Positions 4,333-34,940 of a DNA stretch of 64,000 nt are shown here, piece by piece. The notes beneath the pieces are model-generated. The model worked only from the letters and a program-made list of their open reading frames with translations, ran no database searches and was not told the origin of the DNA. The stretch is from assembly GCA_002104985.1 (NCBI GenBank), contig MCGO01000104.1:1-64000 (forward strand), read 5' to 3'. Each line of letters begins with the position of its first letter. Position 1 is the stretch's first letter. The stretch is from Rhizoclosmatium globosum. Its lineage: Eukaryota > Chytridiomycota > Chytridiomycetes > Chytridiales > Chytriomycetaceae. The position numbers were made by a program, and so were the translations under genes.

Positions 4333-7178
4333 ATGATAGCTCTTCGCTCACAAAATATGCAACATTTGGTCATTTCATTGATAGCGGCTCTTGTAATTCC
4401 AGTGATGGGGGTATCTATTCCCAAGATGGCAAACATGAAAGGTGGAGGTGCAACATTTCCTTTACAGCCCTATTCTTCGGCGATGCTTGACTTCAGCCAA
4501 ATGTATAGTGAGTATACTAATACACCAAGTGGAATTACTAATATTGGGAATTTAAGTGGGTTTCCAGGTCACGCCATACATTGAATCCAATTCTGTGGCT
4601 GGTCAGCATGGCGTGGCGGCAGGACAACTCAACTGGGCTGGAAGCGACGTCGGAATACGATCTGATTTGGTGAGCAAGGGGCTCGCAGTTCTTCCGTCCA
4701 TCGCTGGTGGCTTGCTTATCACGTACAATATTCCTGGAATCGCCGCACCTCTGAAGCTTAGTCGAAAAGTACTACCTCGAATCTTCGATGGCAAAATCAA
4801 AACTTGGAAAGACCCTCGGATTCTGAAAGACAATCCGTTTCTCGCGAACTACTCCAGTCAAGCCAGAATTCGAGTCATTCGCCAAAGTCCTACGTCTGGG
4901 GCGACAATTAATCTGCACTCCTACTTGACTCAACTCGATATTGAAAACGGAGTTGTTCCTTCACCCTACCTGAACTCATCATACTTACAGTCCCTTAATA
5001 CTTCTCTTCTTGCTAAAAATCCAGCGGCAGCCGTCATTATAATTGGTGCTATTCCAAACACAATCACCTATTTGAATCAATTTAATGCCAAGGAAGCTAT
5101 GGACGCGCCAGATTCAACTGTAGATTCAGCGTGGCTCCAACACATCGATGGATCGTTCATCAATTGGTCGGTCAAGTCTGTAAAGGCCGCTGTGGATGGA
5201 ATCCCTGAGGCCATAATTCAGAACAGATCTCTTCAAACCGGAATCGACGCGCTTAATTCTCCAGCTACAGGTGCTTATCCACTTACGTTAATTTCAAACT
5301 TTGTCATCAATCCAAAGAACGTGTCAGCCAGTTCAGTGGAAACAATTGCGACCCTAAAGTTCCTTTGGCTATTTCTTACAACTCCTAGTGTAAGATTTTA
5401 CCTCAATTTTGATGTTCCTTTCTAATTTATAAACTCATCAGTTTGCGACAAAGTTCAACTTTGTTTCGTTGTATAACACCTCTGCTGGTCTGCAATCACT
5501 CAACTACCTCAAAACAATCACGTATTCGGATGGTCTCACACCAGTTTATGGTCAGTCTATTTGCGACGTTGATGTGGATGGAAGTTACAAGAACCCTTGT
5601 ATACATGGAACCTGTGGAGATCCTTACCCTTTCCAGGAAGCAACCGAAGTATGTATCTGCGAATTCGGATATCAAAATGTCCACAAAAACGACTGTTCTG
5701 AACCTACTCCGATATTTGTTCCTGGTTTCATAAGCAAGATTCAAATCGCCCTATTTGTGATTGGCCTCATCATTGTTCTTGGTATTGGATATTTCATAGT
5801 CGTGAAGAGAAACGAGCCAGATATAAAAGCAATGTCTCCGTACTGTTGTCTCTACATCTTGGGAGGATGCTTACTAGGTACAATTGGAGTCCTCACTCAA
5901 GGTCTTTCAACATCAGATGCAGTGTGTCACGCAAATGCCGTGCTTCCCGCCATTGCGTTTGGTATGATCTTCAGTATGATTCTTGCAAAAGCGATTCGAA
6001 TCTTTTTGATCTTTGGATATGCCAAGATTGCTCGTTCCCGACTTCTGAAGGATGATTTCTTGATTGCCTGTTGTTCGATCATCATTATTGTGGAAGGAGT
6101 GTTTGCGGACAGGTTCCTCGATGTTTCTGAGATTGAACCTGCATTGCTATCATTTGAAGGAACGACAGATACAGTTTGGGATTGTGCAGCCTCACCTGAA
6201 AATGCGGATACCGCGAATAGATTATTCGGTGGACTGATTGGCTTCAATGCTATTATTCTTGCACTTTGTATCGTTATGGGACTATTGACAAGAAAGGCGA
6301 GCGAAAAATTCGACGAAAGTAAGAAAGTAAGTGTAGTGGTTGCCATTAGCACTCTGTTTGTGGTACTTGACCTGGTATGTTGATAACGAAACCAGAACAA
6401 ATATAAAACTAAGACAATTTGCTTCAGGGAATCAACTTTGGAATACCGCAAAACACACAAACTATGTACAGTGTTCGTGGATTATTTGATTCGATCACAA
6501 TTTTCATCATATCCACTTCGACTCCCGTGATTCTGTTTTCCAAAGCATTTGGCTGGGATAACAAGAAACAGCAAGGAAACATGTCTCACAACACTAGCGA
6601 CATACATTCATCACATACGGACCAACACGATGGCCTTGTCAGAACTTTTATGGTACGGACACACTTGTTTCCAAGCTTAAATAATCTGATTCAACTTTCA
6701 TTAGTTCCACACAGGTCTTAAACTCAATCGACCCACTTCGCTGTGGAAATCAGCAGTATTTATGGTGATGCCCGACCTTGATATGCTCATCATTCTCAGC
6801 GAAGGAAACAATGGAACCTACACATTCTCGCAATCAAATATCAAGATTCAAGAAAAAACTACAAAGGCTGCTAAATCTAGGACTGAAGAATGTATTGAGT
6901 TTTTGCTTGGATCCGCTAAAACAAGTTACTTGGTTGAGTTCCCGCATAAGGAGAAGATGGACGAATTTCGCTCTCTGAGATCACAGGCGGGTATGAAAAA
7001 AGCTGAGCATCCAGCAAGTTCTGGACCTGGTAGTATGAATCGATTAGATCGAGGTTCACAATCTGGGTTGAATACGAACAGCCTGGGCCGTACATCAAAC
7101 AAAGAAAACGATGAAACCAAATCAAGCACAAATCTTGCTTCATTCGCCGTGTCGCGTTTGAAGAAGGGAGAGATTTAA
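4333..7178 (+). CDS. PstS-EGF-7TM class C-like receptor, paralog 1
   Basis: Exons 4333-4507, 4557-5389, 5442-6374, 6428-6652 and 6705-7178 give 879 aa with no frame break. Residues 1-27 are a signal peptide. About 30-335 match bacterial phosphate-binding PstS: GGGATFP at the N-terminus, NWAGSD, IAGGLLITYNIPG, RIFDGKIKTWKDP and RQSPTSGAT follow in the family order. About 377-421 form a six-cysteine EGF-like module. Seven hydrophobic helices follow (about 435-690). Helix 3 runs into KAIRIFLIFGYAKIARS, a GABA-B receptor/class C-like feature. The tail has a conserved block (about 728-835) that includes MPDLDMLIILSEGNNGTYTF and VEFPHKEKMDEF. The likely role is a plasma-membrane G-protein-coupled sensor of a small extracellular anion. 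Ligand and coupling are inferred. The ATG at 4357 is an alternative start. Confidence 0.85.
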
Positions 7179-7331
7179 TCTCTGGCTTTATGGGTTGCTT
7201 TATCCAAATAAATCAAGTTAAGAATCGCATATCTATCACATATTAATTAATAGTTGGGGTCTTTGCGAATTTTCGGCTCGAAACAATGGTATCCGTTCAC
7301 TTATTGTTCAAAACGCGTGTTGCAAACGTCT

Positions 7332-10034
7332 ATGAAACAAATGAAGAGCATATTTACATTGAGCATCCTGGGTTTTTTGGCCTTGGTCAATGGTCAAACC
7401 GATAGCGACGTCATAAGTTCAGGTGGAGCATCTTTTCCAGAGGAAGCATATTCTGCAGCAATGACGGACTTTGGAGCTACATATTCTTCCGAATATCGAT
7501 TGAAACTGTACGACACGACTGATTCCACAACAGGCCAGCGAAATGTTGTAAACGGACAGTACAATTGGGGTGGAAGTGACTTTGGTGTTAATCCCGCCCT
7601 TACTACACCCAATGCTCCTATTGTGGCTTTACCGGCCATTGCTGGTGGTCTTGTTATCACATGCAATCTACCTGGAATCAAGGATCAAGTAAAACTGTCG
7701 CGTACGGTGCTTCCAAGAATCTTTGACGGAACAATCACCCTTTGGAATGACCCTCTACTCATCCGCGACAATCCGTTCTTGGCGTCTCTCAACTCAACTC
7801 AAGCCAAAATTAAAGTGATTCAAAGAAGTGCTACCTCCGGCTCCTCAAAGGCTTTGATTTCAATTCTGAAACTTATGGATGCGTCGACTGGTTTCAATCC
7901 GTCGCCATACAGTTCTCCAACATTCCAGTTGAACGTTGCAAATTCGGCGACTGCTAAAACTACGATAGCTGCTGGAATTATGGTCGCGGGATTTCCTTTT
8001 ACAATCACGTACTTGAATCAGATTGAGGCTCAAGATGCGGTAAACACTGTTGCATCCACAACTCAAATGGCTCTCATTCAGCATATTGATGGATCTTTTA
8101 TCGCGTGGTCACCAACATCTGTCAGAACTGCAATTTCCAACATTGATGCCAACAAAATCCAGAGCTTGAATATGTCTACTGGGAGTGTTGAGGCATTTGA
8201 TATTCCAACAGTCGGGGCTTATCCCATCACCATGGTTTCAAACTTTATCATCAATCCTCAGCACATCTCATCAGAACCACACGTCACAATTGGAACCTTA
8301 AAATTTCTATGGATGTTTCTTCAAAACCCAAAGGTAACATTCTATAGAAGTTCAGTGATTTTGTCTAAAAGTATTGTTATAGTACGCCCAGCTTTATAAT
8401 TTCTCATCATTGTACAACACAACTCTCGCCGCGAAAACATTGAGCTACCTCCAAACCATCTCACTGGACGGAACTACCCCAATTTACGGCCAATCAGTCT
8501 GCGACGTCCAAATCGATGGAACCTACAAAATACCCTGCGTCCACGGAACTTGCAAAGACCTTCTCCCATTCCAAAACGCGGCTGTCCAATGTCAATGCGA
8601 GTACGGATACCAAAACATCCATCAAAGCGATTGCAGCGAGAAGACCCCGATATTCATGCCTGGCTCTGCGACAGCAGCCCGGTTCGTGTTATTTGGATTT
8701 GGGATTTGCGTTTTGATGTGGGTTGGGTACCGAGTCTTTTCGAAACGCGACGAGCCAGATATAAAAGCCATTTCGCCGCCATGTTGTTTGTGGATTCTGG
8801 TTGGTTGTATACTTGGAGTCATATCCATTATTATTCAGTCTCTTTCGACGACGGAGTCTGTGTGTCAAGCAAGCGCCGTGATCCCCACGTTAGCATTCGG
8901 AATGGTGTTCAGCATGATCTTCTTCAAAGGGTTCCGTATTTACTTGATCTTTGGGTACTCCAAGGTTGCGCGGTCTCGTTTCCTGAAGGATGACGTTTTG
9001 ATTGCTTGTTCTACCATTGTAGGAATTATAGACGCGAGTATTGCTTCGTGGTCTGTCAGTTCAAACCAAATTCAACCCATATTGAAGACGTTTACTTCGT
9101 ATTCTGATACGTTTTGGGATTGTGCGTCAGGTTCTCAAGATCCAACTACAGCCGCCGAGGCTTATGCTGTTTTGTTTGGATTCAACGGACTCTTGTTGCT
9201 GCTGTGCATCATTATCTCAATACTTACAAAGAAAGCAAGCGGCAAATTCAACGAAACCAAGAACGTCGGGGCTGTTATATCACTGAGCACCATGTTGATT
9301 GGTCTGAATTTGGCAGTGACGTTTGGGCTTTCTCAAAGCAGTCCATCGATGTATCACGTAAAGGGTCTAGTTCTTTCTGCTACCATGTTTATCATTTCCA
9401 TCGTGTCGCCACTTACGTTGTTTGCAAAGGCTTTGAAAGGAGCTGTTGGAGAAAACATGTCATTTGAGAGCAGTGGTGGCTTGACTTCAGGTGACCTGAA
9501 TGACGGACTCGTAAAAGCCTACTTGGTGAGTAACTTGTTTGGTTTTCATTCACGAAACTGATGATGTTCACTCCTGCAGTTTCACACTGGCTTGAAATTG
9601 AACCGCCCAGCAGCCTTTTGGAAATCTGCGGTTCTCATTATCATGCCAGATCTCGATATGATCATAATTCTCAGTGACGGAAACAACGGAACTCACAGAT
9701 TCTCAAAGACATTCCTTCAAGTCCAACACAAAACTGCCGCCTCTGCAAAGAAACAAGAAGAAGAGTATCTTGAAATTACTGTTGGTTCTGCCAAAACGTG
9801 CTACGTTCTTGAGTTTCCTCATAAGGAGAAAATGGATGAGTTCAGGCCTTGAGAACGTCGATGGGAATGAAAAAGCTAGGTACCAACAGTAGAGGGATGG
9901 CATCACAAATGCTTGCTGGAAGTAGAGCAGACTTAGCGGGCGCCAGCTTGAAGGGGGATGTCTCTCAAAGAATTGGAACACGAAGTTTGGGTAATCTTGC
10001 AGCATCGTACGCCAAAAATCATGATCTTTCATAA
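7332..10034 (+). CDS. PstS-EGF-7TM class C-like receptor, paralog 2
   Basis: Exons 7332-8333, 8383-9525 and 9580-10034, about 866 aa after allowing one missing base near 9848. There the frame falls into a stop right after MDEFRP, while LRTSMGMKK continues in the next frame. The architecture is the same as paralog 1, 150 bp upstream. The order is signal peptide (MKQMKSIFTLSILGFLALV), PstS-like domain (GGASFP, NWGGSDFG, RSATSGSS), EGF-like cysteines, 7TM and conserved tail. It is the most divergent copy and lacks two of the four introns of the other paralogs (the first, in the PstS domain, and the one in helix 6). The pocket is altered: TFP becomes SFP and the serine-glycine loop reads TSGSS, so its ligand may differ. 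The start was chosen at the ATG giving a clean signal peptide. Confidence 0.82.
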
Positions 10035-10159
10035 CTTATTTTCCTATTTGATACTTATTCAATCAATACTCTTCAATTTCATTTAATAAAGACCATTGGA
10101 ATTTTTGATTGAAAAGAGTTTATTTTGAACCAGGTTCTGCTCGACAAAACATAAAATGC

Positions 10160-11746
10160 TTAATGGAAACGCGTAATATCTCTTCCAAAAATCCAAGTCA
10201 AGAACCAATACATTGGAATCATAATCTTGTTTTTGGTCGAGACACTCATTGTAAAGTAAGCGGATCTCCAGAACAACCATGCACTGATTCCAGACTTTGG
10301 AACAAGTTCCTTCAAAGTATCAATTACGTCGCTTGACTCAGTGGTTTTTGAGGTAGACTTGGGAGAAGACATGTCAACCACGGCTCTCCATTTCCCAATG
10401 TACGCCAAACTACCCATATGATTGTATTCGAATGGTTTTACACCGACTGATTCGAAAGTAGAGAGACCGTCCGGGCTTGCCTTGATTGACTTGTTGAGAG
10501 CTAAATTGATTGTTTATGGTCAGTGTCACATTCATTTTCTAAGTACCTTTAAAAAAAACAAACAAAGACGGACAGACGTACCTTTCAATAGCCATGCACC
10601 TTTTTGGTTTGCAACTTGAGCAGTACAAGGCAATTGACGATCTTGGATGGTGGCACAGTCTCCCAACGCATAGACACGATCAACAGGTTTCAGATTTGCG
10701 TCCAAGACTCTACAATGATTGTCGGTGATAATTCGCCCCATAGTTTTGTCGCGTGCCAATGCACTTGAAGTAAGATCCTTGACCAAATCAACAGGTCCAA
10801 CACCAGTAGACCACACCAACATGCCGTAATCCACCTTTGTCCCACTTTGAAGCACGAAATGGGACTTGTGAACTTCTTTGACACCTTCACCTAAACGGAG
10901 GGTGATTCCCTTTCTGGTGAAACGGTCACGCGCATAGGTACTCAGTTTTTCGTCGAAAGCTCCAAGAATCTTTTTGCCAACATCATAGATTGTCATTGAG
11001 ACATGGGGCTTCAAGTTTGGATACAGTTTGAGAATGTCTTCAGTGATAAAGTCGTGGAGTTCCTGGTTGATGTTGATGTGTTTTAGAGAGGTGTGTTTTT
11101 TGGCTGACGAGTGACAAGTGAAAACGTCCATACCGCCATAAATTCAACACCAGTGGGACCGCCTCCGACGACGGCAAAGTGAAGTAGCTTTGAGCGATCG
11201 GACTCTGAAATGTTTGGTTGAGAGGCATGTTCAAAGCATCCATGATCTTTGAACGAATCTTTCTCGCGTCAGTCACGTCCTTCCTAAATTTAATAAAAGC
11301 TTAGTACTGTGTTCGTATAGAATGGCGCACAGGACTCACAGGAAGAGAGCGTGTTCCTTGACACCTGGAATGTTGAAAGTATTCGAGATAGCGCCAGTAG
11401 CAATCACAAGCGAGTCGTAGTTCACGGCAAACGAGTCGCCCTTGAAAGCCTCCAGGGCGAGGCGCATTCAATGATCTGTTGAGCAAGTCGATTCAGTGCA
11501 CGTTGCCTCGAAGAAAGCGAGGTTCGGCACGCGCTTGACTGGCTCGGTGACGCATCTGAATTCGAGAGTTCCGACGGCGGACGACGCGAGCAACGGCGTG
11601 AATGTGAAGTGGTTCTTCGGCGACACGACAGTCACTTCGAACAAAGACGTGTCAAGGCCCTGGATCAGTCGGAAGCCCGCCCAGCCTGACCCGAGAACGA
11701 CGAGTCGGTGGCGTCGCGTGGCTAGAGCGCCGCCTGAAAGTGACAT
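10160..11746 (-). CDS. NDE1: Alternative (type II) NADH dehydrogenase, NDE/NDI type
   Basis: This single-polypeptide FAD enzyme passes electrons from NADH to ubiquinone without pumping protons, on the mitochondrial inner membrane. The N-terminus has the FAD-binding dinucleotide fold ([13 protein letters not shown]), then [15 protein letters not shown] second dinucleotide fold ([12 protein letters not shown]) binds [13 protein letters not shown] is the second FAD contact. The C-terminus, with a membrane-binding helix region ending in [15 protein letters not shown], is typical. Several short introns are visible, for example after GPTGVEFMA and after GAWLLK. The frame is broken near 11480 (an in-frame TGA in the stretch after EATCT) and near 11210 (one base missing before [11 protein letters not shown]). 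I take both as sequence errors because all functional motifs survive. It lies tail-to-head below ALG8 (ALG8 stop to this start about 125 bp). Confidence 0.85.
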
Positions 11747-11870
11747 TGTTGCGCTTTTTGGTGAAGAGGTTCAATGCTTCACCTTGCTCTTTTCCACCGA
11801 CCTCACTCACTCACTCGATGACAAATTTCAGCCCCCCCAGTAATTCGAATCACATCTGACGTAACACTCT

Positions 11871-13861
11871 TTACTCTATCAAGAACGACAATGCGACAAA
11901 TGAGTACAGCACTCCTACAGAGCAATACACTGACACAAGCATCAACGGCAAAAACTCTAACCTGCTCCCAAATACAAACGGATGAACCAACTCCGCATAA
12001 ATATAGAGAGGTCCCATTCCGTACACATACAATCTTTCAAGAATATTTAACTGAAGTCCTCGTTCCGACTTGTTTGCGGCCGTTCTATTGAAACTTTAGC
12101 TATAAATCCCACACACACCAAGACTTACTCTTTCGTTAGGAATGCCAAAAAGTGGATGAGGTCATGGCGTACAATAAAAACACGATCACTTTGGTTGGGG
12201 TTTCTGGGGACAGAGGGAAATTTGAGTGCTGCTGTTAAAACAAGTAACAGCATACCAGTCGCTTTGAAAATCAATGGAAACAATGACAAATATCCTGCAC
12301 AACTCAGAATATAAAAGATTTGTGCGTGGCGCCTTGTTCTTGTTGCAACGAGACTAATATCAAAATATTAACTTGTGTCACAACACAAACCTGTTCACTA
12401 TCTTACCTCAAAGGAATAAGAACAAGCAAAATCGCTTTCTCGTGGACATGCCAACCAAATAAGAATGAACTGAAACCACAGAGAACAAAGAATCAACAAA
12501 GGCATCTTTTGTAGGCCGCTTCCACAAACTGTACAAGCTGGGCTATTTCCATACAAAATAAGTAAGAACATTCCTGACCATTATATTGTTGCGCAACAAA
12601 CCAGCTGGAAAACCACAGTCAGAATCAAAGTATGAATAGGCTCAATGTTTGGCAAGACTGCAAACACCGAGTTGCCAACCAGGCCTCGCGTCAATGACGG
12701 CACCTCTCCAAGTTCAGCACCTTTTCCAGCGAGTTTGAGGCCTATGTTCATTGTTAATTAAACTGTCAATGTCATATCCCTTTCATACCCTGAATGGCAA
12801 CACGATCCGCAAAGGAATACAGTGCCCAAAAGTTGGGTGCCCAATACGCGTGACACAATCCTCGTTTGAACGGAAACAGACGCGACAACACTTGTGGGAT
12901 GTGTTGAATGAACGGACCAAATGATACCAAGAATACGGAAATAACAGAGATTCCAATCTTGACGAATCGCAGGAACGAGAAAGAGACTGAATTTGGTTTG
13001 AATTTCGTTGTGGTGAATTCAAAGTGCAGAGAGCAATGTCGGACAGAACTTACACGATCCATTCGTTTCGATGAAGCAATATCGACTTAACAAGTACACG
13101 AAATAGGCTGGCGCTTGGTACAAGTAAATGTGCTTGAAGTTCATGGTGACGGCAAACAGGACTCCCCCAAGAAGGTACCGTTCCTGCACATCGATCAGCG
13201 TCCATAAGATACATACTACAGTAATCCACCTTCCACAATGCATGAATGGAAAGCAACTGGATCCCATACAAGAACCCATTATATTGAAAATGGATATTGT
13301 CCACAAACAACAACCCAGGATCAGAACACCAATGCCGTCAGTATGATCCTCTTTCTCGCATCTGCAACATCCGCAAAGATGCTAACTCATCCAGTCAGTT
13401 CACTTCCCATCATCCAACCCAAAACCACAAACACAAACCTCACAACAGCGTAAAACAAAACCGCCTCCGTGACCACAACACTCGCCCGCTGAAACAAGAT
13501 CGTAGCATCACTCGCATACCCCAAGTTCTCAACCACAACCATCGCGGGATCAACCCACTTCGCAATATGTGACATTGTCCATTCGAACCAGGCAAAGAAG
13601 GGCGGGTAGTCCAGCGTCCATTCAGATGTCTCTTCGTAGTACCATTTGGAGAGCGGGAGGGAGTTTGTGAGGGCGAGCCAGTTGCGGTGGACTTCAAAGT
13701 CGGTTGAATGGCTGGTTTCGATAGACGCTTGTTCAGAGATTGGAGAGACGAGTGGGGGATGCAGTGCTTACTAGGAGTAGAAGAGGAGGTTTTGAGGATC
13801 GCGGATGTCAGGAAGAGGACGGCGTTGGGACCTGTAGGAACGTGGATATGATAGTGCTCAT
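11871..13861 (-). CDS. ALG8: Dolichyl-P-Glc:Glc1Man9GlcNAc2-PP-dolichol alpha-1,3-glucosyltransferase
   Basis: ALG8 adds the second glucose to the lipid-linked N-glycan precursor in the ER lumen. The protein is polytopic and split by many short introns. Diagnostic segments run in order: [12 protein letters not shown], then [20 protein letters not shown] (the ALG8 rather than ALG6 version), [66 protein letters not shown], and a C-terminus reading [20 protein letters not shown]. The stop is at 11871. The start ATG at 13861 gives MSTIISTFL and then needs one extra base near 13831 to join [13 protein letters not shown]. An unseen upstream exon cannot be excluded, so the start is uncertain. Confidence 0.85.
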
Positions 13862-17148: not shown

Positions 17149-19880
17149 ATGAGCGTAGTGACCTTCGCTCTCTGCATTTTGGTGGTGTTCGTCAGCGCAG
17201 ACCCAAAAGATGCCATCGTTAAAGGAGGAGGCTCCTCATTTCCGCTCCAGCCATATTCTGCTGCCTTGACCGACTTTAATCAGATTTATCGTGAGTATCA
17301 TCGAAGCAAATGTTAGTTAACCCAATATGGTCAAACAGAGGGCGTTCAAGCAGCTCCCTACTTATCTGGGACTTCGATTTCTGCTCAACAAAGTGTAACT
17401 TTAGGTACATTAAACTGGGCCGGAAGCGACGTTGCAATACAGCCTGGAAATCCAGGAATCATAGCCCTTCCAGCAATCGCTGGAGGAATGGTTGTAGTAT
17501 ACAACCTACCAGGAATCTCCACACGAGTCAAATTGAACCGCAAGATACTTCCCCGTATTTTTGACGGAACCATCGTTGAATGGAATGACGCTCGTTTACT
17601 TCAAGACAACCCTTTTTTAGCCAACATTACGTCCAGAATCCGAATAGTTAGACAAGGACCAACCTCTGGAGGAACGATTAACGTTTCCAAGTTTCTTGCT
17701 CAGATTGACATACAACATGGAATCAACCCATCTCCATTTTCAAATTCCAAGGTCCTGCAATCGGTTGCAAACTCTCTCCTTGGAAAGAATGCTCCTGCTG
17801 TTAGTATTATGGTTGGGGCAATTCCATATACAATTGGATACCTGAATCAGCTTGATGGTCAAGATGCTATACCCACCGCCGGTTCCACTGTTCAATCTGC
17901 GTTGATTCAGCACCAAGACGGTTCATTTGTTGGCTGGTCCATGGAAGCCGTTAATATCGCTGTTCGAAGCATCTCAACAGATACAGCTCAAACCTCATCA
18001 GTTCAAGATAGCAACCTTATCGCGTATGACTCTCCAGCGCCTGGCGCATATCCTTTAGCTGTTATTTCAAACTTTGTCATAAATCCGACGAACATTTCAA
18101 TGAATGTTATGGAAACCATTGCAACTCTCAAATTTCTGTGGATATTCATTCAAAACCCTCTGGTAACCTTTTTTCCCCATGAATCTAAACAATTACCTTA
18201 AAACTCTAAACTCATGATATTTTTAGTATGCAACCAACTATACGTATGGTTCCATCGCAAACACGGCTGCAGGCTTGAAGACTTTGAACTATCTCAAGAC
18301 CATCACATACCCAGATGGAGTCACTCCAATCTATGGTCAATCAATCTGCGATATTGATGTCGACGGAACCTACAAGAACCCCTGCGTGCACGGACACTGT
18401 ATTGATCCGTACCCATTTCAGCAACCGTTCCAGGTCTGCATCTGCGACTACGGCTACCAAAACGTATACAAAAACGACTGCTCAGAACCAACACCCTTAA
18501 TCATTCCTGGCTTTGTGAGCAAAATCCAAATCACTCTTTTTCTCCTCGCTTTAGTGATTGTTCTCGGATTTTCATACCTCATTGTCACGAGGCGAAATGA
18601 GCCAGATGTAAAAGCGCTTTCACCTTTGTGTTGTCTCTACATTTTGGTTGGATCCTTGGTGGGATGTGTCGCAGTGTTAACACAAGGCCTTTCTACATCG
18701 GACGCTGTGTGTCGCGCGAATATTGTACTTCCTGCCGTCGCATTTGGAATGATATTTAGTATGATTCTCGCAAAAGCGGTTCGAATATTCCTCATCTTTG
18801 GGTATTCCAAAGTTGCACGGTCGCATTTTTTGAAGGACGCTTTTCTCATTGCCTGTTGCACAGTGGTTGCGATCGTTGAAGGTGTTTTGGCGTGGCATAT
18901 GTTTACTGCAGCCAATATACAGCCAGCCTTGGCAACCTTTGATCAGTCGTCGAACACAATTTGGGATTGTGCGGCCCCAGCCTCTGATACTAATACTGCA
19001 AATCAAGAATTTGGTGGGCTCATAGGATTTAATGCGATAATATTGGCACTGTGCATTGCGATGGGGCTTCTTACTAGGAAGGCATCGCAAAAGTTTGATG
19101 AAAGCAAGAAAGTTGGCATTGTAATTTCGATCAGTACGTTGTTTGTAGTGCTTGATTTGGTGAGGTGTTAGACATGAGAATCATTTTATACTAACTATTT
19201 GATATAGGGAGTGAACTTTGGTATTCCTCATACCACGCAGAGCATGTTCTACATTCGTCGATTGTTTGACTCCATCACTATATTTTTGATTACAACAGCT
19301 ACCCCTGTTATACTATTTTCTGCCGTTTTGGGATGGGGTAATGGACACCATGGAAGTAACTTGTCCCACACAAAGAGTGAAGTCGACTCCGCCCACCTAG
19401 ATCAAAATGATGGCCTTGTAAGAACATTTATGGTAAGGCATCACTAACAGTCTTTTTTTTGTTATTAATTGTAAATACTGCCAGTTCCACGTTGGCATGA
19501 AACTGAATCGTCCGGCATCTCTTTGGAAATCCACAGTCTTCCTTATCATGCCAGACCTAGATATGCTCATCACTCTTGGAGAAGGCAACAATGGAACATA
19601 CACTTTCTCGCAATCTAACATCAAGATTCAAGAAAAGACCACAAAAGCCGCGAAAGCTAAAACCGAAGAATGCATCGAACTCTTGCTCGGCACTGCAAAG
19701 ATAGCCTATTTGGTGGAGTTTCCACACAAGGAAAAAATGGACGAGTTCAGAACATTACGTTCTCAATCTGGAATCAAGAAATCATCGCTTGGAAACTCAT
19801 TGACTCTGACAACAGCGACAGCGACATCTCGTTCTGAAGGGAAGTCATCCCAAGCTGGTCTCTCTGTTCCGAATAGATAA
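17149..19880 (+). CDS. PstS-EGF-7TM class C-like receptor, paralog 3
   Basis: Exons 17149-17290, 17339-18162, 18227-19159, 19208-19432 and 19485-19880 give 839 aa with no frame break. The four introns sit at the same positions and phases as in paralogs 1 and 4. The start at 17149 gives a clean signal peptide (MSVVTFALCILVVFVSA). The PstS-like domain shows GGGSSFPLQPYSAAL, NWAGSDVAI, RIFDGTIVEWNDA and RQGPTSGGT. The EGF-like module includes NPCVHGHC and CICDYGYQN. The 7TM helices include KAVRIFLIFGYSKVARS. The conserved tail carries MPDLDMLITLGEGNNGTY and is followed by a short Ser/Thr-rich end. It starts about 270 bp downstream of CSN4. Confidence 0.85.
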
Positions 19881-24489: not shown

Positions 24490-25170
24490 TATTAAAATAA
24501 TTGAAAACACAAAAATTCCATCTAAAATGGCTGAGGAGCTGAGTCATACCTTACAGTCAATTTGCCAACATTTGTTGTGGCCCAGTTCTCTTGACTGTTG
24601 TCCACTAGTTCACCTTTCTATTTCTTTTTAATTGTGTCTGCGATACTACTCGCCATCCAGTCTGCAGGTTGTGCGTCTTTTTGAAGTCCACGTTCACTTT
24701 GAGTTACAAACTCCCAAAACTGCTGTGGTCGTCTTCTGGTTCGTCCTCTTGACTGTTTTCGAAATATTCCCTATAATTTTGTGTATCTTTTTCATTTTCT
24801 TGATCTAGGGCTTGGTCTGCGTCTTTTTCGCCTCCTTCAAGTTCGTTGCCCTTTTCTTTGTCTCCAATCTCCTCCCAGTCATTGCCTTGCTCTAAGTTCT
24901 CGCTGCAATTGGTGTTTGGCCGTGACGGGCCCGACGGCAGCGAGAGCCATCCAGTTTCACGCGTTTATTCTTTGAATTCGATCGCCCTATTACCCTTGTA
25001 TTAGGTCCTTAGTTTGTCAAGTTAATTTTTGAGTTGATATTTAGTTTCAAACAGTGTATGGGTGTGAATCACAAAATGAGCTGATCAAAATCAAGGGTGT
25101 TCCAGTTTAGGATTTGGCGAGTTTATGAGTAGGGTCTCTACCTGTCTTTTATGCACAAAAATTAAAAGAT
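24490..25170. other. Intergenic region between the bZIP gene and the acidic-protein gene
   Basis: No gene is supported here. Short open frames have no family features. The sequence is moderately T-rich around 24590-24850. Confidence 0.4.
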
Positions 25171-25745: not shown

Positions 25746-26059
25746 GTTGGCCCTGTATTTAAGTCCGTTAAAACATGAATGATACACAACGTTAATTTAC
25801 TCTTCTGCTGCCAACGCAGCCATTCTGCGGGCCGATCGAACTCTTCTTGCGTTTTTCCTGTTTACCAGACGATGTGGCTCAGCCGCCAGAGTTGAGTTTC
25901 GCAAGTCAAGTGTCAGGGCTGGACGCAAGGATGCTCAGAACATTAGGGTTCGTGAAAAAAGCCTATTCTCACAAGTTTCTCCAGTTTCAAGCTTTTGCGG
26001 GAGGCTCCAAGGATGTGGCAACTGATGACTCATCGCTGTGGGTCTCGTTATGTCAGTAA

Positions 26060-27172
26060 AACGTTTGTATGACCGAGACTCACGTGCAAAGTAGATTTCT
26101 TAGGTACTTTTTGAGCGGGATATCTCGGCAACGACGAAGGGAAAGCCGTTCGGACAAACGACCAGGGTACAGCAAGATCACATTGCAATCAATTTCTGCA
26201 TAAGTCGCAGAATCTTTTGCATCGAACTCGATGAGTGAATATTAAACTCATACATGTTGCGCTCGAACAATAAAGTCAAAATACAGGTCTTCATCTGAAG
26301 AATCAATTCTCACAACCAAAGAACCGAAGCATCTCTTTGAAATATTCAATTGAAAAGGTGCTAGAGATGAGAATAAACTCTGACGTCAGCTCACCCGAAT
26401 TCATTTGCCCAAAAATCAACAAGCTGCGGATACTAATATTGTTTTCGATCTCATCTACTGTGTCAGTCTTTGCTCCCACCACTCTTTGGCTTGTTTTTGC
26501 TGAGATAGCACCCCCTATTTCAGTGTAACATGGACTGCGCAAGATTTGCCGAAATTTTCTATAAAATGCACACCCCACATCTTCCCAGTATTTCCAACCT
26601 CCAACACCTCTTCCAATGAAAAAAACTTGTACCTAGCACATGTAGACGAGTGCTGTTCAGCGCACGGAATCGCAGAGACAATGCCTTAATTGGCCATCGA
26701 CGTTGACAGCTCAAGTCCCATCCACTCTGCTGTCAATTCTCGCGATGGGCAGGACACTTCGGTCCTGGGTCCTGGATCACTCGGCGTCTCTTCATAGAGT
26801 CGAGGTCAGGCGGAAGGGAAATGCTATGTTTTGATCACGACTTGTTGTATCTCAATCAACATGTTCACAAGAGATTTGTGGTGACATCTTGTTCCTGTTG
26901 GAGCGTTGTCATTTCGTGATTAGTTACATCGGAAACTTTGTCACAGATTAGTTGGCTCCCACCTACCATCTTCCTCTTCCCTTTGAGAGACAGCTCAATA
27001 CCATCTCTTGAAGGGGCAGGGACTCGACGCTGCCAGAAGTGTTGGGTCCCTGTTCCAATATTTTTAATATCAAATGATGAAACTTGAACGAGAAACTTTC
27101 CTTTTATTCTTGAAGTTATTGGGTAATAAAAGTAATTCTCTTGCATAACACCTTACCATGTTCAATACTGAT
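26060..27172. other. Region without a recognised gene
   Basis: Only short frames occur, none recognised. A minus-strand frame at 26303-26578 (91 codons) and another at 26865-27146 (93 codons) are open but show no family features or clear introns. They could be exons of an unknown gene. The region separates the acidic-protein gene from the 3' end of the nucleoporin gene. Confidence 0.35.
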
Positions 27173-29600
27173 TCAAACCCGATATTCCAACGGCACATAC
27201 TCTGGAATCAGCTTCCCATTCTCTCGACCCCCAAACTCATCCGCCGCCAGCTCATCCAAATCTTCTTGATGCAATTCAACCATCGCAGGGTACTTGAGAT
27301 TCCACTTCTCCGCCATTTCGAGAAGCTTGGGGTCGATTTCTCGCTGGATTACTGTCGGCACTGATTGCTGTTGTTGCTGCGGTGGCGCAACCGTAACAGG
27401 TTTGAGTTTTGATGCCTTCTTAGATGCTGAAGGTGCAGCTGTAGGTATAGGTGCAGGAGCTGGCTCTGGCTTGGGCTGAGTGAATGAAAACCCGGTTGCT
27501 TGCGTCGGTGCAGCGTTTGGTGCAGGAGTTGCTGATGATGGAATTGGTTGTGTGGTTGATGAGTTGGATGATGCTGGTATAATGGGCCCCCCTGTTCCAA
27601 ATGCAACATGATTTGTGACTGGAACCAAAGGAAGCGATTTGATTTTTTCGGAAACAAGCGAACTGATTTGACTTGGAACTAGAGTTCCATGTCGCATGGC
27701 AACATGCTGGGCGTGGGGATCTGCGAGCAACTTTTGAGATTCTTGAGATGCTTGGGAAACGGCTTGTTGGTAATATTGGATCTAGTTATCAAGTATGATT
27801 AAAACGATAATCCTACAATATCAATCCTCACATATTGATTCGCATTCCCAGTTGTGCGCATCTCATGACAGTACAGCACGCGAGCTTCTTCGAAAGAAAC
27901 GTCGCATCCGGAAAGAATACAAGGGTCTTCTTTAGTAAGTCCGTAAGATGAAAGCGGCCAAAGAGGACGTTCTGTTGCCGTGAATTCTTTACGAACAACA
28001 TCAGCTGCATTTCTGAGTAGTAAAAATGGTAAGAAAAGGATCAAAGGAAGCTAAGACATACGGTGGAGTAGGAATATTACTGGTTGCTTTTTTAGGAGGA
28101 GAACTAATTGTTTGGCCACCAAAGATAGGGTTTGGAACAGGAGCTACTGATGTTGATGACGGTGTTACTCCAAAAGCAGATGGCTGGTTGAATTGGGCTG
28201 TTGACGTGGGAGGAATGGGAGACGAGCCAAAAGCGTTGGTCGAAGGCGGGACTGGAGTTGTAAAACCTGAGGCAAGTGGATTGCCGGAAGTATTGTTTCC
28301 CGTTGATGCTGCTCCAAACGCATTGGAGGGAGCGGCCCCAAATGCTGATGCATTTGAGTTTCCAAATGCACTTCCAGTTGTTGCTGATTGACCAAAAGCA
28401 CTTCCACCAAAAACGCTTGGTGTATTGGTAGATCCAAAAGCAGATGATGCATTGCTTGCTGTACCAAAAGCTGATCCTCCAGTGCTTGTACCAAATGCAC
28501 TGGATGTCGAACCACCAAATGCACTTGCGTTGTTTCCACTTCCGCCTCCAAAAACGCTACCACTTGTTCCACCGAAAGCACTCTTCGTTGCGTTTGCACC
28601 TCCAAACACACTCGTGGAATTTCCCGCCACAGCTCCAAAGGCACTCGCAGTATTATTCGCGCCTCCAAAAACGCTAGTGGTAGTTCCCGAACCTCCAAAT
28701 GCACTTGCGGTATTAGCTGTACCGTTGCTAAACACGCTGGTGCCAGCTGCGTTACTCGCACCTCCAAACGCGCTAACACTCGTCCCACCAAACGCACTCG
28801 CCGTTGTACTTCCAAACGCACTTGGCGCTGCTGAACTTCCAAACGCACTTGGCGCTGCTGTACTTCCAAAAGCACTTGGTGCTGTACTTCCAAAGGCACT
28901 GCTCGATGAGTTCCCAAACGCGCTCGCAGTTTTGTTAGCGCTTCCAAAAACGCTTGCCGAGCTTCCTCCAGTTCCAAAAGCGCTCGCAGTGTTTGTACCA
29001 AACGCGGATACAGTATTTCCAGTTCCTCCAAAGGCATTATTACCAGAACCGCCAAAGGCCGAAGTCGTTCCAGTTCCAAACGCACTCGCAGTACTATTCC
29101 CTCCAGCAGCACCACCAAATACGCTTGAAGTAGGATTTCCAAAAGCACTAGAGTACTTCCAAACGCGGTTGGGTTAGCAGGCTGAACAGAAGCTCCAAAC
29201 ACGCCTGAAGTCTGAGCTGGAGCGCCAAAGGCACTTGCAGGAGCAGCCGTGTTTCCAAAGGCACTAGTTGGGTTTGACGCAGCCGCCCCAAACACACTTG
29301 TTGATGCAGCAGGCGGAGCACCGAACGCACTCTGACCAAACGCATTTTGTGGCTGAGCAGAGCCTCCGAACACCGAACCGAAGGCTGTCCAGTTGCGGCG
29401 CCAAACGTTGTTGTTGTTGCCGCGGCCGAACCGAAGCTGCCAAAGCCGGACCCAGTCGCTGTCGAGCCCGCGCCAAACACTGACGACGAGTTGACATTTG
29501 CCGGTGCTCCGAACGCGGTCCGTTGCTGCTGCTGCTGCTGCGCCTGGCCTTGGGGTTGTGCGGTTTGCCCAAACCCAGACGATCCAAATCCACCAAACAT
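27173..29600 (-). CDS. NUP42: FG-repeat nucleoporin, NUP42/Amo1-like
   Basis: Begins MFGGFGSSGFGQTAQ and continues for roughly 500 residues of Ser-Ala-Phe-Gly and Ser-Val-Phe-Gly repeats. These natively unfolded FG segments line the nuclear pore channel. After an intron (about 28065-28016) comes a folded segment: TERPLWPLSSYG, GCDVSFEEARVLYCHEMR and NANQYIQYYQQAV. After a second intron, a Pro/Gln-rich linker leads to a C-terminal helix ending GKLIPEYVPLEYRV. Repeat type and C-terminal end resemble fungal NUP42, which docks mRNA-export factors at the cytoplasmic face of the pore. No CCCH zinc finger is seen. Two single-base losses (near 29388 and 29155) shift the frame inside the repeats. Because the repeat codons stay open in several frames, long false ORFs result on both strands. 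Confidence 0.65.
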
Positions 29601-29754
29601 TTCTTGTTATATTATTGTACTCTCTCTTCTTCTTTATGAGAACTAAACTAAACTTCTGATATTCTTTATTCCTTTTCTATTTGACTGTTCTACATACGTC
29701 CTTTCTTTCTTTTTCTTTCCAACAAACCAAACCTCAACCTCCCAAATTACATCG

Positions 29755-30353
29755 ATGTCCACAACTGAATCAACGATTACGCTCACTATCCGCCTCATCA
29801 AGTCATTTGAATTCAGGAACTTAAGAATCTTGTCGTTCATGTTGATCCTGCGACAACAACTCCACAGGATCTTGCGGAACTGGTTAAGCAAAGTAAGTCT
29901 TCGCTCTCAATAGATTCTATCCAACTGTTTGAACACTTAAATTATGTAGAGGTCGCCAGTGATAGTGCTTTCAAGGTGTACAGAACTGTTGACTTTGGTT
30001 TGTTCAGTTGATAGGCACTCGACGAATTGTTCTGACTCCTCCTTGTCCCCATTTCTTCTTCCAGATACATTTAAGCTTTACACAAAAGCCTTTGGCGCCA
30101 AGGTACTGTCTTGAGTTGACAACCACTCTGTCTCCCAACATCCAACACACTTCGCTGACATATCACATCACAAACAATCTTTTAGACTCAAAATCTTATC
30201 ATCAATCTCGACCATGATGAAGATTGGATCATGGATCCTGCTATTCCACTGTCGTCCCAACCAATGCCTGCCATCGAAAACGAGACTGAGATTTCGTACT
30301 TCAACAAAGCCATGTACGATGCCTACAAAGCTCACCCAGAGACGAAATGGTAG
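29755..30353 (+). CDS. UPF0538 family protein (C2orf76-like)
   Basis: Exons 29755-29892, 29950-29997, 30065-30102 and 30186-30353 give 130 aa after adding one base near 29820. There RLIKSFEFRN continues as LKNLVVHVDPATTTPQDLA in the next frame. The family signature is clear at both ends: an N-terminal ITLTIRLIKSFEFRN and a C-terminal NETEISYFNKAMYDAYKAHP. The family is conserved in eukaryotes, has a ubiquitin-like fold size, and has no established biochemical role. It lies 154 bp from the nucleoporin start (divergent) and 68 bp upstream of the prolidase start (same strand). Confidence 0.8.
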
Positions 30354-30421
30354 TGGGAAATATTATACGAAGAACGAATCACTTGTATTTTACTTTTGAG
30401 CCTACAATAAACCTATTCCGG

Positions 30422-32081
30422 ATGAATCCGTTTGACCCGTTCCCCCTTCGCAGCCTCGCCGTCGACAACCGCCAGCGCACTCTCGCGCGTCTCCTTCCAA
30501 AGGCGTCCACCGGAGTTGTCTTCATTACATCTTCCACGCGCGAGTTCTTTTACTATCTGACTGGCCTGACTCCGCTCGACTCGGACCATCCATTTGCCTT
30601 GTTGCTCGAGCTTCCGTCTGGCCGAACAACGCTCTTCTCGCCCGAATACGACGATGAATTCAGGCTCTGGAATGCAACGCCAAAGACATTTGATGAGCTC
30701 AGAGCCGAAGTTGGAGTTGACTCGGTCGTTGCAGCTGGTCAATTGGGTGGCGTGCTGGAGAAGGTGTGGCCTTGGTCCAATCTTGCGAGTCGATCTTTAT
30801 TGATGGTTTCAATGTTTGCAGATACTGGGCCCTGTAGGTGCTGGCGGCATTGTGCATATCCTTGACTCCACACTGGAAGCCATTCCTGACGAAGTCAAAA
30901 GGTACAACTTGAAGCGGAAAGAGTTTACGCACGCGATCACTGAATCTCGCGTCTTCAAGTCAACCGCTGAAATAAGCCTTCTGCGTCAGGTAAACATCTT
31001 GTTCACACCCTCCCATCTCGCAACCATGTGATGCATATATTGATATGTACACCGAAAAGGCAGCTGAAATTACTTCCAAAGCACACATCCAGCTTATGAA
31101 AACCGCGTCAACATACACATACGAAAAGCAACTTGAAGCAGAATACGTATACTCTATTTCCATGTCTGGCGCCCGCAATGAAAACTGTATTGTAGCTGGC
31201 GGGAGAAACGCAAGTGTCCTTCACTACTCTGCAAATAACTCTCGTCTGCCCGCTCCCGTAAGCCCCGAATTAATTCTGGTGGATTCTGGTGTCGTATTAC
31301 ATGGATACGTTAGCGACGTGTCTCGCACGTTTCCACGCTCTGGTCGCTTCGTGGGAGATTGGAAACTCGTTTATGAAGCAGTCTTGGATGCGCACAAGGC
31401 AGTTTGCAGGCAATGAGACCAGGCGTCGAGTGGGAAGACATGCATCGACTTGCAGATCGCGTCATGTTGGGACATCTTGTCAAAATAGGGGTTTGTAAGG
31501 GTGATTTTGAAGAGCTTGTGAGGAATCATGTGGGCGCCTTGTTTTTCCCGCATGGTGTTGGGCACTTGATTGGGCTGGAAGGGCATGACGTTGGTGGATA
31601 TCCTGACGGTGTGGAACCTATCGATGAGCCTGGAATCGATAAACTGAGAATGCGAAGAAAATTGGAGGCGGGCATGGTTGTTACTGTTGAGCCGGGATTG
31701 TACTTCAACTCGAATTTGATTCAAAAAGCGGTTAAAGGTGGTGTGCTAACCAAGTTTTTGGATCTTAAAAGAGTGAAAGAGATTGAGGAACACGTCGGGG
31801 GTGTTAGGATTGAAGATATGGTTTTAGTTACTGAGGAAGGATGTGAGGTTTTGTCGAAGGATGTACCCAAAGAAGTAGCAGACATCGAAAAGATCATGAA
31901 AGGAGCGATGAACGAAAAAGGCGTCATGATGAACTTTATGAATCCCTTGAAGGATGTAGAAGAAGGTGTTGCAACATTGAAGGAATTATGGAAGCAGGAG
32001 TACATGAACATCGCACGCCGTATATGGACAGAGCGTTTAATTCTGTTCTTGATCTTCTTTTGCCTCTACTTGACGAAATAA
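30422..32081 (+). CDS. PEPD: Xaa-Pro dipeptidase (prolidase), peptidase family M24
   Basis: Exons 30422-30763, 30822-30989 and 31060-32081 give 510 aa after adding one T near 31402 (DAHKAV continues LQAMRPGVEW). Prolidase splits dipeptides with a C-terminal proline, using two metal ions in a pita-bread fold. The metal ligands are visible: Asp in ILVDSG, Asp in YVSDVSRTFP, His in HGVGHLIGLEGHDVGGYP, Glu in TVEPGLYF and Glu in VRIEDMVLV. The N-terminal domain (STREFFYYLTGLTP, LEAIPDEVKRYN) is also typical. Unusually, about 60 residues follow the normal end and finish in a hydrophobic helix, TERLILFLIFFCLYLTK. This could make it a tail-anchored protein. The gene converges on receptor paralog 4, with stops 58 bp apart. 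Confidence 0.9.
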
Positions 32082-32139
32082 AAATAAAATATTTATTTCA
32101 TATCTTTCGATATACGATGTGTCGCTTTATTCTTCAATA

Positions 32140-34940
32140 TTAAATCTCTCCTGCCTTCATTCGTGATATTGCGAAGGACGCGAGGTTCGTGGTTGAGGAG
32201 GTTTCCTCCTTTCCTTGGTTTGGCGCACGAGTTGTGTTGTTCAGCCCAGATTGGGAGCCTTTATCTAGTCGGTTAGTACTATTACTTGGACCAGAACCTC
32301 CATGCTCAATCTTTTTCATTCCTGCCTGGGATCTTAAAGTCCGAAATTCGTCCATCTTTTCCTTGTGCGGAAACTCAACCAAGTAACTTGTTTTAGCGGA
32401 TCCAAGCAAAAGTTCAATGCATTCCTCAGTCTTTGCTTTAGCTGCCTTTGTTGTCTTTTCTTGGATCTTGATGTTGGAATGTGAGAAAGTATAGGTCCCA
32501 TTGTTTCCTTCACTCAGGATGATGAGCATATCGATATCGGGCATGACCATAAAGACCGCAGATTTCCAGAGAGAAGTGGCACGGTTTAATTTAAGGCCTG
32601 TGTGAAACTGTGGATAATAAGTGTTGGTTTTCCCTTTAGGATATGAATGTTCCTTACCATAAATGTTCTAACGAGGCCATCGTTTTGATCCGCGTGGGAA
32701 GAGGATAATTCGCCTGTTTGGTGAGACATATTTCCTTGTTGTTTGCTGTCACCCCATCCCAACGCTTTTAAAAACAGAATCAATGGAGTGACGGTCGAGA
32801 TAAGGAAAATGGTAATTGAATCAAACATTCGTCGAACGTTGTACATAGTCTGGGTGTTTTGTGGTATTCCAAAGTTAATTGCCTATTGTGAACATAGTCA
32901 GGTTTTGCATTTGCTTAAATAGATCTTACTAGGTCAAGTACCACAAACAGCGTACTGATAGAGATTACGACACTGACTTTTTTACTCTCATCGAATTTTT
33001 CGCTTGCCTTTCTCGTCAACACTCCCATCACGATGCAAAGAGCCAGATAATTGCATTGAAACCAATCAATCCACCAAATAGCCTATTGGCGGTATCGACG
33101 TTTTCAGGTTTAGCAGCACAATCCCAAAATGTATCGGAACTGCCTTCAAAGGACATTAAAACTGGGTCGATTTCAGAAAGATGTAGAAATCGATCAGCAA
33201 ATACTCCTTCAACAACAATTACAACAGAGCTACACGCAATCAAAAAATCGTCTTTCAGGAATCTTGAACGTGCAATTTTTGAGTACCCAAAGATCAAAAA
33301 TATTCGAATCGCCTTTGCGAGAATCATGCTAAATATCATGCCAAAAGCAATTGATGGAAGAATAACGTTTGCGTGACACACTGTGTCTGTAGTCGAAAGG
33401 CCTTGGGTTATTACTGCTAAGCTACCAAGCAAGCATCCTCCCAATATGTAGAGACAGCAGTATGGCGACATTGCTTTTACATCTGGCTCATTCCTTTTCA
33501 TTATAATCATGTATCCGATTCCAAGAATAACAATTAGACCCAACACGAACAGAACTATTTGGACCTTGCTTACAATTCCAGGCATAAATATCGGGGTCGG
33601 TTCCGAACAATCGTTTTTGTTGACGTTTTGATACCCGAATTCGCAGATACACACTTCGGTTTCTTCTTGAAAAGGATATGGGTCACTGCAGGTTCCATGT
33701 ACACAAGGATTTTTATACGTTCCATCAACATCAGCGTCGCAGATAGATTGACCGTAGACGGGAGTCGAGCTGTCTGGGTAAGTGATGGTTTTTAGGTAGT
33801 TGAGAGTTCTCAAACCAATTGGGGTGTTGTACAGGGATACAAAATCATATCTCGTAGCATACTAAAAACTAAAATAAACAATTTGAGTTTGATAAATGTG
33901 TGACTTACACTGGGAGTGATCAAAAATAACCAAAGAAACTTCAACGTGGCAATTATTTCTGTGGAGCTGTTTGAAATACCTCTGGGATTAATTACAAAGT
34001 TTGAAACTAGGGTGAGAGGGTAGGCTCCTTTGGCAGGAGAGTTGTAAGCAATAAGTTCGTCTTGAAACGACAAGTTTTGGACAATTGCTGGTGAAATTCC
34101 GTCGATGGCGGCTTTAACTGATTTAATTGACCAGGGAATGTATGACCCGTCTTTATGCTCAAGCCAAGCTGAGCCTACTGTAGAATCTGAGCCTGCAGTG
34201 ATGTCGTGAGCATCATATTGGTTCAAATATGTTATGGTATTCGGAATAGCTCCGATCATAATCACAGCCGCTGAGGGACTTTTTGCCAAGAGAGTATTAT
34301 TAGCAGTCTGTAGAGAGGAGCTGTTTTGATGTGGTGATGGAATAATTCCATTCTCCACATCAAGTTGAGTCAAAAAAGTTCTTAAATTGATTGTAGCTCC
34401 TGATGACGTGCTTTGACGGATAATTCGGATCCTTCCGGCGTAATTGGCGAGGAATGGGTTGTCTTTGACGATTCGAGGATCTTTCCACATAAAGATTGTT
34501 CCATCGAAAATTCGAGGAAGAATAGTGCGGCTGAGTTTGAGTGGTGTTGGAATATTAGGAATATTGTAAGTGATAAGCAGACCACCAGCAACGGCGGGTA
34601 GGACGACTAATCCTTGGTTTGCTAAATCTGGAGTGATACTGACGTCACTGCCTCCCCAGTTAAACTTTCCAGACGCGACATTTTGCTGTCCTGTCAAAGA
34701 ATTTGATGGATCATACGGTGTTACTTGGAATCCCTCTAATCCAGTTATAAGTTTAGCAAGGTGAAAAAAAGGAGCTGAAGGATACTTACGATACATTTGG
34801 CCGAAATCCAAAGAAGCAGACGAATATGGCTGCAAAGAAAACGTGGATCCACCTCCTTTTATGTTTGCAACTTGATGATTTGTTGCGAGCACGACACGGC
34901 AGAGTAAAATAGAAAGAACAACTAGTGACGATGAAGTCAT
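32140..34940 (-). CDS. PstS-EGF-7TM class C-like receptor, paralog 4
   Basis: Exons on the minus strand: 34940-34790, 34735-33909, 33861-32930, 32882-32658 and 32607-32140. They give 867 aa after adding one C near 33045, where FNAII must continue as LALCIVMGVLTRK. Intron positions and phases equal those of paralogs 1 and 3. The signal peptide is MTSSSLVVLSILLCRVVLA; an in-frame upstream ATG at 35054 would add 38 residues. The PstS domain has GGGSTFSLQPYSSAS, NWGGSDVSI, RIFDGTIFMWKDP and RQSTSSGAT. The EGF-like module has NPCVHGTC and CICEFGYQN. The 7TM part has KAIRIFLIFGYSKIARS. The tail block (MPDIDMLIILSEGNNGTYTF, VEFPHKEKMDEF) is nearly the same as in paralog 1, its closest relative here. 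Confidence 0.85.

Follow-up and report, generated by a model that had tools for sequence, protein, structure and literature searches.

Four paralogous genes, g1 to g4, occupy positions 4333-34940 of the DNA stretch analysed in this study, which is the first 64,000 nucleotides of a contig of the chytrid Rhizoclosmatium globosum (MCGO01000104.1; C7:1-64000, hereafter the window) in a genome assembly of 56.9 Mb and 420 contigs. Each gene encodes a binding domain, or head, of the type of the bacterial protein PstS, an epidermal growth factor (EGF)-like module, a seven-transmembrane (7TM) domain like that of class C G protein-coupled receptors (GPCRs), and a cytoplasmic tail. A sequence-only reading had placed four such receptors here. 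Its coordinates were exact, the ATG of g1 being at 4333 on the forward strand and that of g4 at 34940 on the minus strand, and the Pfam models 7tm_3 and PBP_like_2 both scored above cut-off in all four genes. Exon models of g1-g4 were spliced at GT..AG introns of 47-64 bp. The features are as follows.

4333..7178, forward: g1 receptor gene, 879 amino acids (aa); exons 4333-4507, 4557-5389, 5442-6374, 6428-6652 and 6705-7178; exon model, Pfam 7tm_3 87.0 bits and PBP_like_2 41.2 bits
4438..5519, forward: g1 PstS-type domain, across exons 1-3; Pfam, NCBIfam and PDB matches
5562..5696, forward: g1 EGF-like module, cysteine 1 to cysteine 6; cysteine spacing, no Pfam EGF model above cut-off
5745..6538, forward: g1 class C-like 7TM domain, PF00003 at residues 438-684, exons 3-4; Pfam, PDB profile search
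6705..7178, forward: g1 cytoplasmic tail exon, family-specific; conservation, no Pfam or PDB match
7332..9852, forward: g2 receptor gene, 805 aa, tail shortened by a frame break near 9850; exons 7332-8333, 8383-9525 and 9580-9852; exon model, Pfam 7tm_3 86.5 bits and PBP_like_2 48.0 bits
7416..8460, forward: g2 PstS-type domain, the sole window copy in which E. coli Arg135 is matched by an Arg; NCBIfam, PDB, pocket alignment
8500..8634, forward: g2 EGF-like module; cysteine spacing
8683..9411, forward: g2 class C-like 7TM domain, in one exon; Pfam
17149..19880, forward: g3 receptor gene, 839 aa; exons 17149-17290, 17339-18162, 18227-19159, 19208-19432 and 19485-19880; exon model, Pfam 7tm_3 79.7 bits and PBP_like_2 30.8 bits, seven clean helices
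17221..18304, forward: g3 PstS-type domain; Pfam, TIGR00975 genome search, pocket alignment
18347..18481, forward: g3 EGF-like module; cysteine spacing
18530..19318, forward: g3 class C-like 7TM domain; Pfam
19485..19880, forward: g3 tail exon; conservation
32140..34940, minus: g4 receptor gene; exons 34940-34790, 34735-33909, 33861 to about 32930 (frame broken near 33041), 32882-32658 and 32607-32140; exon model as far as the break, reading for the exons beyond it
33784..34859, minus: g4 PstS-type domain; Pfam, TIGR00975 genome search, pocket alignment
33607..33741, minus: g4 EGF-like module; cysteine spacing
33040..33561, minus: g4 class C-like 7TM domain, portion ahead of the frame break; Pfam
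32140..32607, minus: g4 tail exon, 81% identical to the g1 tail; conservation

PBP_like_2 (PF12849) matches the heads of g1 to g4 at 31-48 bits against a cut-off of 27 (E 2e-10, 2e-12, 3e-7 and 2e-11, respectively). With TIGR00975, the NCBIfam PstS model, the g1 head scores 121 bits (E 5.5e-35) and the g2 head 108 bits (E 6e-31), and these two heads, the only ones submitted to NCBIfam, matched PstS models exclusively. In the PDB, PstS chains rank first for both heads and every match with E < 1e-4 is PstS. Phosphate-binding proteins account for 19 of the 21 matches of the g1 head, all with E <= 3.2e-5 (the other two have E 0.22 and 1.3), and for all 17 matches of the g2 head. Bacterial PstS is homologous to the g1 and g2 heads over most of the length. 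The head typical of mGlu, CaSR and GABA-B receptors is the type I Venus-flytrap (ANF_receptor, PF01094). Pfam found no PF01094 match at E <= 1 in g1-g4 and found PF12849 in each, so that a head of the ANF type was rejected and the proposal of a PstS-type head in its place was upheld. Bacterial contamination was also rejected, on account of the introns, the context of 7tm_3 and G-alpha genes, and the near-identical copies on several contigs. A search of the head alignment against other genome contigs gave 34 pattern stretches, none of which was confirmed; the motifs were family-specific, so only close relatives are excluded there.

The helical part matches 7tm_3 (PF00003) above the cut-off of 33.5 bits in all four genes (87.0, 86.5, 79.7 and 64.1 bits for g1 to g4; E 2e-24, 3e-24, 4e-22 and 2e-17), and no Pfam model other than 7tm_3 and PBP_like_2 is above cut-off in g1-g4. 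A profile of the EGF-like module and 7TM domain (EGF-7TM profile) found 63 PDB sequences at E <= 1, and the best 60 of the 63 were examined. mGlu1 was first (E 7.2e-10), chains of mGlu2, mGlu4, mGlu7, GABA-B2, GPR156 and CaSR were present, and there was one transporter (7cyk, E 0.09). The mGlu1 alignment pairs an F-[ND]-E-x-K segment and the two cysteines that in class C receptors usually form a bridge between helix 3 and the second outer loop. A KAIRIFLIFGY-type segment, noticed earlier after helix 3, does sit there and is aligned to the equivalent stretch of mGlu1. The class C-like nature of the 7TM domain was thereby borne out. In the hydropathy scan, g3 has a hydrophobic N-terminus and exactly seven helices beyond the EGF-like module. 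In g1 and g2 one helix was called as two overlapping segments and a marginal segment appeared in the tail; the N-terminus of g2 was below threshold, and g4 was covered only up to its frame break. When the EGF-7TM alignment was searched against viral contigs, 34 pattern stretches were obtained and none was confirmed, which with such family-specific motifs excludes only close relatives.

All four modules between head and helices have the six cysteines that had been claimed for them, with EGF-like spacing, though EGF models remain below the Pfam cut-off in g1-g4 (the best, EGF_Mua-3, has E 0.32 in g2 only). The nine-cysteine domain NCD3G has no Pfam match at E <= 1 in g1-g4, the six-cysteine module being found instead; to our knowledge NCD3G is absent from GABA-B and from known non-animal class C members. 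The tail (6705-7178, 19485-19880 and 32140-32607) is the most conserved part of the receptor, yet it lies outside any Pfam or PDB family: the four tails match no Pfam model at E <= 10, and the tail profile finds no PDB chain. A PH-like fold, to which a strand-strand-...-strand-helix pattern had pointed, is not claimed because of these two negative searches.

The separation of head and 7TM into different genes was rejected. PF12849 and PF00003 occur together on one polypeptide in all four exon models, and two paralogues elsewhere in the genome have uninterrupted intronless frames, of 727 aa on contig C90 and 746 aa on C160, which run through two thirds of the PstS head, the EGF-like module, the 7TM domain and the tail. 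In the C90 frame 7tm_3 scores 87.3 bits; its head is without the first third and gives 18.3 bits with PBP_like_2, under the cut-off of 27, and matches TIGR00975 at E 1.5e-14. On C223 a single 482-aa frame extends from the head through the EGF-like module into the first helices; PBP_like_2 scores 51.7 bits, and 7tm_3 remains below cut-off at 23.7 bits because the frame is partial. The head, the six-cysteine module, the 7TM domain and the tail, which is confined to this family, are on one polypeptide and were duplicated together. Neither of the outcomes that the sequence-only reading had named as refuting it, a lack of Pfam hits or a split into separate genes, was seen.

Differences between g1-g4 were calculated as proportions of synonymous (pS) and replacement (pN) change. 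pS ranges over 0.63-0.89. The pN values are 0.18-0.37 for the head, 0.10-0.32 for the EGF-7TM part and 0.035-0.23 for the tail, the lowest of all parts. In the g1-g4 comparison, replacement change climbs from 0.035 in the tail to 0.103 in the 7TM domain and 0.184 in the head, with synonymous change of 0.63-0.83. Since synonymous sites are near saturation and replacement sites are not, the reading frames of g1-g4 are not due to chance. The paralogues are under purifying selection, which is strongest on the tail.

Maximum-likelihood trees of the head and of the 7TM domain agree in placing g1 with g4, in a group of C379, C403, C28 and C368, and in the deep position of C82 and C90. They disagree in the placement of g3 and in the order of g2 and C223, with support of 50-60 in the head tree and 76-99 in the 7TM tree. 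The 7TM tree, in which g4 was entered as the 190 residues preceding its break, splits the PstS-headed receptors from mGlu1 and four other class C loci of this genome, three of them ANF-headed, with support of 99; these are four of the five non-PstS loci tried, L001 being omitted as its best piece was shorter than 150 residues. The trees fit one joining event of head and 7TM domain followed by duplication of the whole unit.

In the genome, at least 139 7tm_3 matches were found (150 of 163 candidates were scored), together with 45 TIGR00975, 26 PF12849 and 66 ANF_receptor matches and one short SBP_bac_1 match; 41 matches were obtained for chitin synthase, in keeping with a fungus. When 7tm_3 matches were merged, with haplotype-like contigs counted separately, there were at least 120 loci, of which 57 carry an ANF domain no more than 2.5 kb upstream, 20 have a PstS domain and 43 have neither. 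Full loci of the window type number about 12: four in the window, two on C368, two on C223 and one each on C28/C35, C403, C82 and C90/C160. For this count near-identical contigs were paired by hand. The frames read did not include those at L023 (C7:83.7 kb). The g1 tail matches the genome in 25 places, each at a PstS-7TM locus or at an internally deleted copy of one. In such copies, L037 (C368:254500-260000), L047 (C379:48000-53500) and L039 (C48:47000-52000), the PstS domain is cut after its first third and joined to the final quarter of the 7TM domain and the tail. G-alpha gave 141 exon-level matches, clustered on few contigs (C366, C370, C310, C65 and others). The receptor and G-protein system of this genome is unusually large. 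Radial_spoke_3 had no match in this genome and none in the control genomes either, and hence has no bearing on flagella.

The phosphate contacts of E. coli PstS, whose numbering is used here, are taken to be T10, F11, S38, D56, R135, S139, G140 and T141, with D137 supporting R135. In bacterial PstS, D56 takes up the proton that phosphate carries and discriminates against sulfate. We aligned 12 rows of the PstS-7TM family and six rows of a second PstS-headed family, which is described below. The equivalents of T/S10, F11, S38, D56, S139 and G140 are kept in all four window genes, and D56 in nine of the 12 family rows, being lost in C82 and in both C223 copies. In g2 all eight contact positions are kept, with Ser for Thr at two of them (Ser at T141) and with R135 retained. 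The C90 paralogue, like g2, retains D56, R135, S139 and G140.

We consider it fairly likely that g1-g4 are class C-like GPCRs with a PstS-type (type II) head that ancestrally sensed phosphate or a related oxyanion, and that their specificity has been diverging. In such a receptor the head would close on a small oxyanion, the cysteine-rich EGF-like module would relay the movement of the head to the 7TM domain, and the 7TM domain would switch one of the many G-alpha proteins of the genome, a coupling that is predicted. The strongly conserved tail may dock a partner common to the family.

Several observations weigh against this interpretation. In g1, g3 and g4, R135 is replaced by Gln and T141 by Ala or Gly. 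Among the 12 family rows R135 is kept in three (g2, C82 and C90) and is Gln in the other nine, and the D137 equivalent is absent from all four window genes and kept in one row. The g1 and g2 heads are under the TIGR00975 equivalog cut-off of 205 bits, as are all 45 genome matches; this cut-off was reached in only four of the 12 control genomes having a match. Structure models built from four-row alignments were unusable for the g2 head (mean predicted local distance difference test score, pLDDT, 31.5) and for the tail (mean pLDDT 47.0), and a Foldseek search with the tail model, with no match at E <= 0.001 among 76 up to E 10, is uninformative because the model is too poor. Pfam found no phosphate-uptake gene among ten neighbouring frames of the window. 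SPX, the domain of the known intracellular phosphate sensor, has two genome matches, one strong (116 bits, G000:C360:167626-168657) and one weak, and thus appears sparse in this genome. Finally, single frame breaks are present in this assembly in the g2 tail near 9850 and in the 7TM exon of g4 near 33041, g4 being readable for 603 aa before its break. Contig C385 carries near-identical copies of g1-g4 that are intact at both of these sites and broken at others, so the breaks in g2 and g4 are possibly allelic differences or assembly indels.

The phosphate-type sensor that had been proposed for all four genes therefore stands in part: g2, with Arg135, has a PstS-like pocket, and g1, g3 and g4, with Gln135, depart from it, as do all four in the missing D137. 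Arg135 is probably ancestral because the Arg-bearing rows include deep members. The ancestral pocket would thus have been a phosphate pocket that has changed since, and the four copies are not expected to be equal phosphate sensors. The main features of that pocket persist in g2 and in the paralogue on C90, which are the best candidates for phosphate sensors, and we judge the chances that free phosphate is the ligand of g2 to be about even. That it is the ligand of g1, g3 and g4 is rather doubtful; in these, affinity for phosphate is probably lower, or the ligand is a different anion or a phosphate ester. Paralogues with Lys139 (four of 12 rows) or without Asp56 probably do not sense free phosphate. 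The pocket varies from copy to copy, and only some copies may sense phosphate.

It is also conceivable, though we regard it as unlikely, that g1-g4 are receptors whose head senses free phosphate in no copy, the ligand being instead phosphate esters, polyphosphate, nucleotides, arsenate, sulfate or a cell-surface molecule. The loss of R135 to Gln in three of the four window genes and nine of the 12 rows, the Lys at S139 in four and the loss of D56 in three would agree with this, and the head evolves faster than the 7TM domain or the tail, as expected under shifting specificity. The residues kept in g2 and C90 and the presence of D56 in nine rows argue against it.

The idea that g1-g4 are nutrient transporters, with the PstS-type head as the phosphate trap and the seven helices as its route through the membrane, starts from the role of bacterial PstS in an uptake system, and transport was inferred in this way, from homology of the head, for proteins of Plasmodiophora (PMC4815078, as far as its text was available). 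We regard this as very unlikely. The helices match a receptor family above cut-off in all four genes and not a permease; mGlu and GABA-B receptors head the PDB profile matches, whose best 60 of 63 include the single transporter; no ATPase or permease Pfam model was found at E <= 1 in g1-g4; and most other 7tm_3 loci with an identified head pair with the receptor-type ANF domain (57 of at least 120 merged loci, against 20 with PstS). Receptors rather than transporters is thus a reading that we hold with high confidence. That the copies are decaying duplicates without present function, as the breaks in g2 and g4 and the internally deleted copies on C368, C379 and C48 might suggest, is hardly credible given the purifying selection between paralogues (pN 0.035-0.37 against pS 0.63-0.89), the intact g1 and g3, and the unbroken C385 at both break sites.

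The novelty is smaller than the sequence-only reading had implied, since the fusion was in print for Spizellomyces in 2012 (PMC3251606) and for Plasmodiophora in 2016 (PMC4815078). These were the two papers found in the open-licence literature on PBP_like_2 with 7tm_3; searches of the same literature gave no paper on PstS with 7tm_3 in fungi, on a phosphate-binding domain with a class C GPCR, or on a PstS-like domain with a G protein-coupled receptor. SPPG_06488 of Spizellomyces punctatus has PBP_like_2 (PF12849) and a glutamate-family 7TM domain and was reported alongside other binding-protein heads in Allomyces (PMC3251606). It comes from a zoosporic fungus, shares both Pfam domains with g1-g4 and, by its description, is almost certainly the same kind of receptor. 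In the available parts of that paper its head is not interpreted as PstS or as phosphate-binding, and no EGF-like module, tail or analysis of the pocket is given. In Plasmodiophora brassicae, 7tm3 is fused to PBP_like_2 or SBP_bac_1 in single coding regions according to the transcriptome, and four of the fusions were named phosphate transporters by homology and held to be unique to the species (PMC4815078). As described there, they resemble g1-g4 in joining 7tm3 to a prokaryotic binding domain, with phosphate assigned by homology; they differ in their rhizarian host and in being called transporters, and the available parts of the paper analyse neither pocket nor tail.

About 100 class C receptors were reported in 2016 from three gut fungi, about half with type II heads, and some have EGF-like domains (PMC5168858). 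These are like g1-g4 in uniting a class C 7TM domain with a type II head; the heads were read there as sugar-binding, whereas the present genome has only the short SBP_bac_1 match. The animal receptors mGlyR/GPR179 have a ligand-binding head, an EGF-like module and a class C 7TM domain in the same order as g1-g4, with a Cache domain as the head (Cache-EGF-7TM in mGlyR; PMC12716839). For fungi as a whole, 918 glutamate-class receptors are given in the accessible text of one study (PMC12842992), and a 2026 review, in the part available, describes the fungal 7tm_3 class as uncharacterised (PMC13308352). Bacterial PstS, for its part, is a soluble partner of an ATP-binding cassette (ABC) importer, whereas the fungal heads are under the equivalog cut-off and have an altered pocket. 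As far as the open-licence searches reach, the architecture was already known, and what is new is the explicit comparison with the PstS pocket, the tail and the way in which the pocket changes from copy to copy.

A second family of PstS-headed membrane proteins was found in this genome at L022:2789-5371 (C46), L017 (C157), L018 (C246), L021 (C8), L030 and L031 (C168), L035 (C385:130 kb) and L040 (C384). In its members an N-terminal helix is followed by a PstS domain, with TIGR00975 scores of up to 143 bits, and then by about seven to eight helices; this multi-helix part matches no Pfam model above cut-off and no PDB chain. The C46 member reads through 861 aa in a single frame without interruption. 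Of the six aligned rows, among which the L040 row is a fragment, three retain the R135-D137 pair. Within the window itself, the frame at 21046-21957 matches Man1-Src1p-C-terminal (MSC) at 35 bits in Pfam, and a frame at 54396-54812 has a cysteine-containing stretch that by eye resembles it and is possibly a paralogue.

In conclusion, a more far-reaching reading, which we hold to be less likely than not, is that a PstS domain, joined once to a class C 7TM domain, became a chemoreceptor repertoire of about a dozen loci in this fungus. The pocket would have been re-tuned copy by copy, with Gln in place of Arg135, Lys in place of Ser139 or Asp56 lost, for a range of oxyanions or phosphate esters, and the 7TM domain and above all the tail would have been fixed for one output. 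On this reading the second, unrelated multi-helix family, some members of which have Arg135 and Asp137, may be the true phosphate sensor. The receptor reading corrects the transporter label of the Plasmodiophora proteins. Because the head comes from one of the best understood binding proteins, its ligand can be predicted at the level of single residues. Should phosphate or a related ligand be confirmed, g1-g4 would include a fungal cell-surface phosphate-sensing GPCR with a head of bacterial type, and the paralogues would offer a natural series for the re-tuning of a binding pocket.

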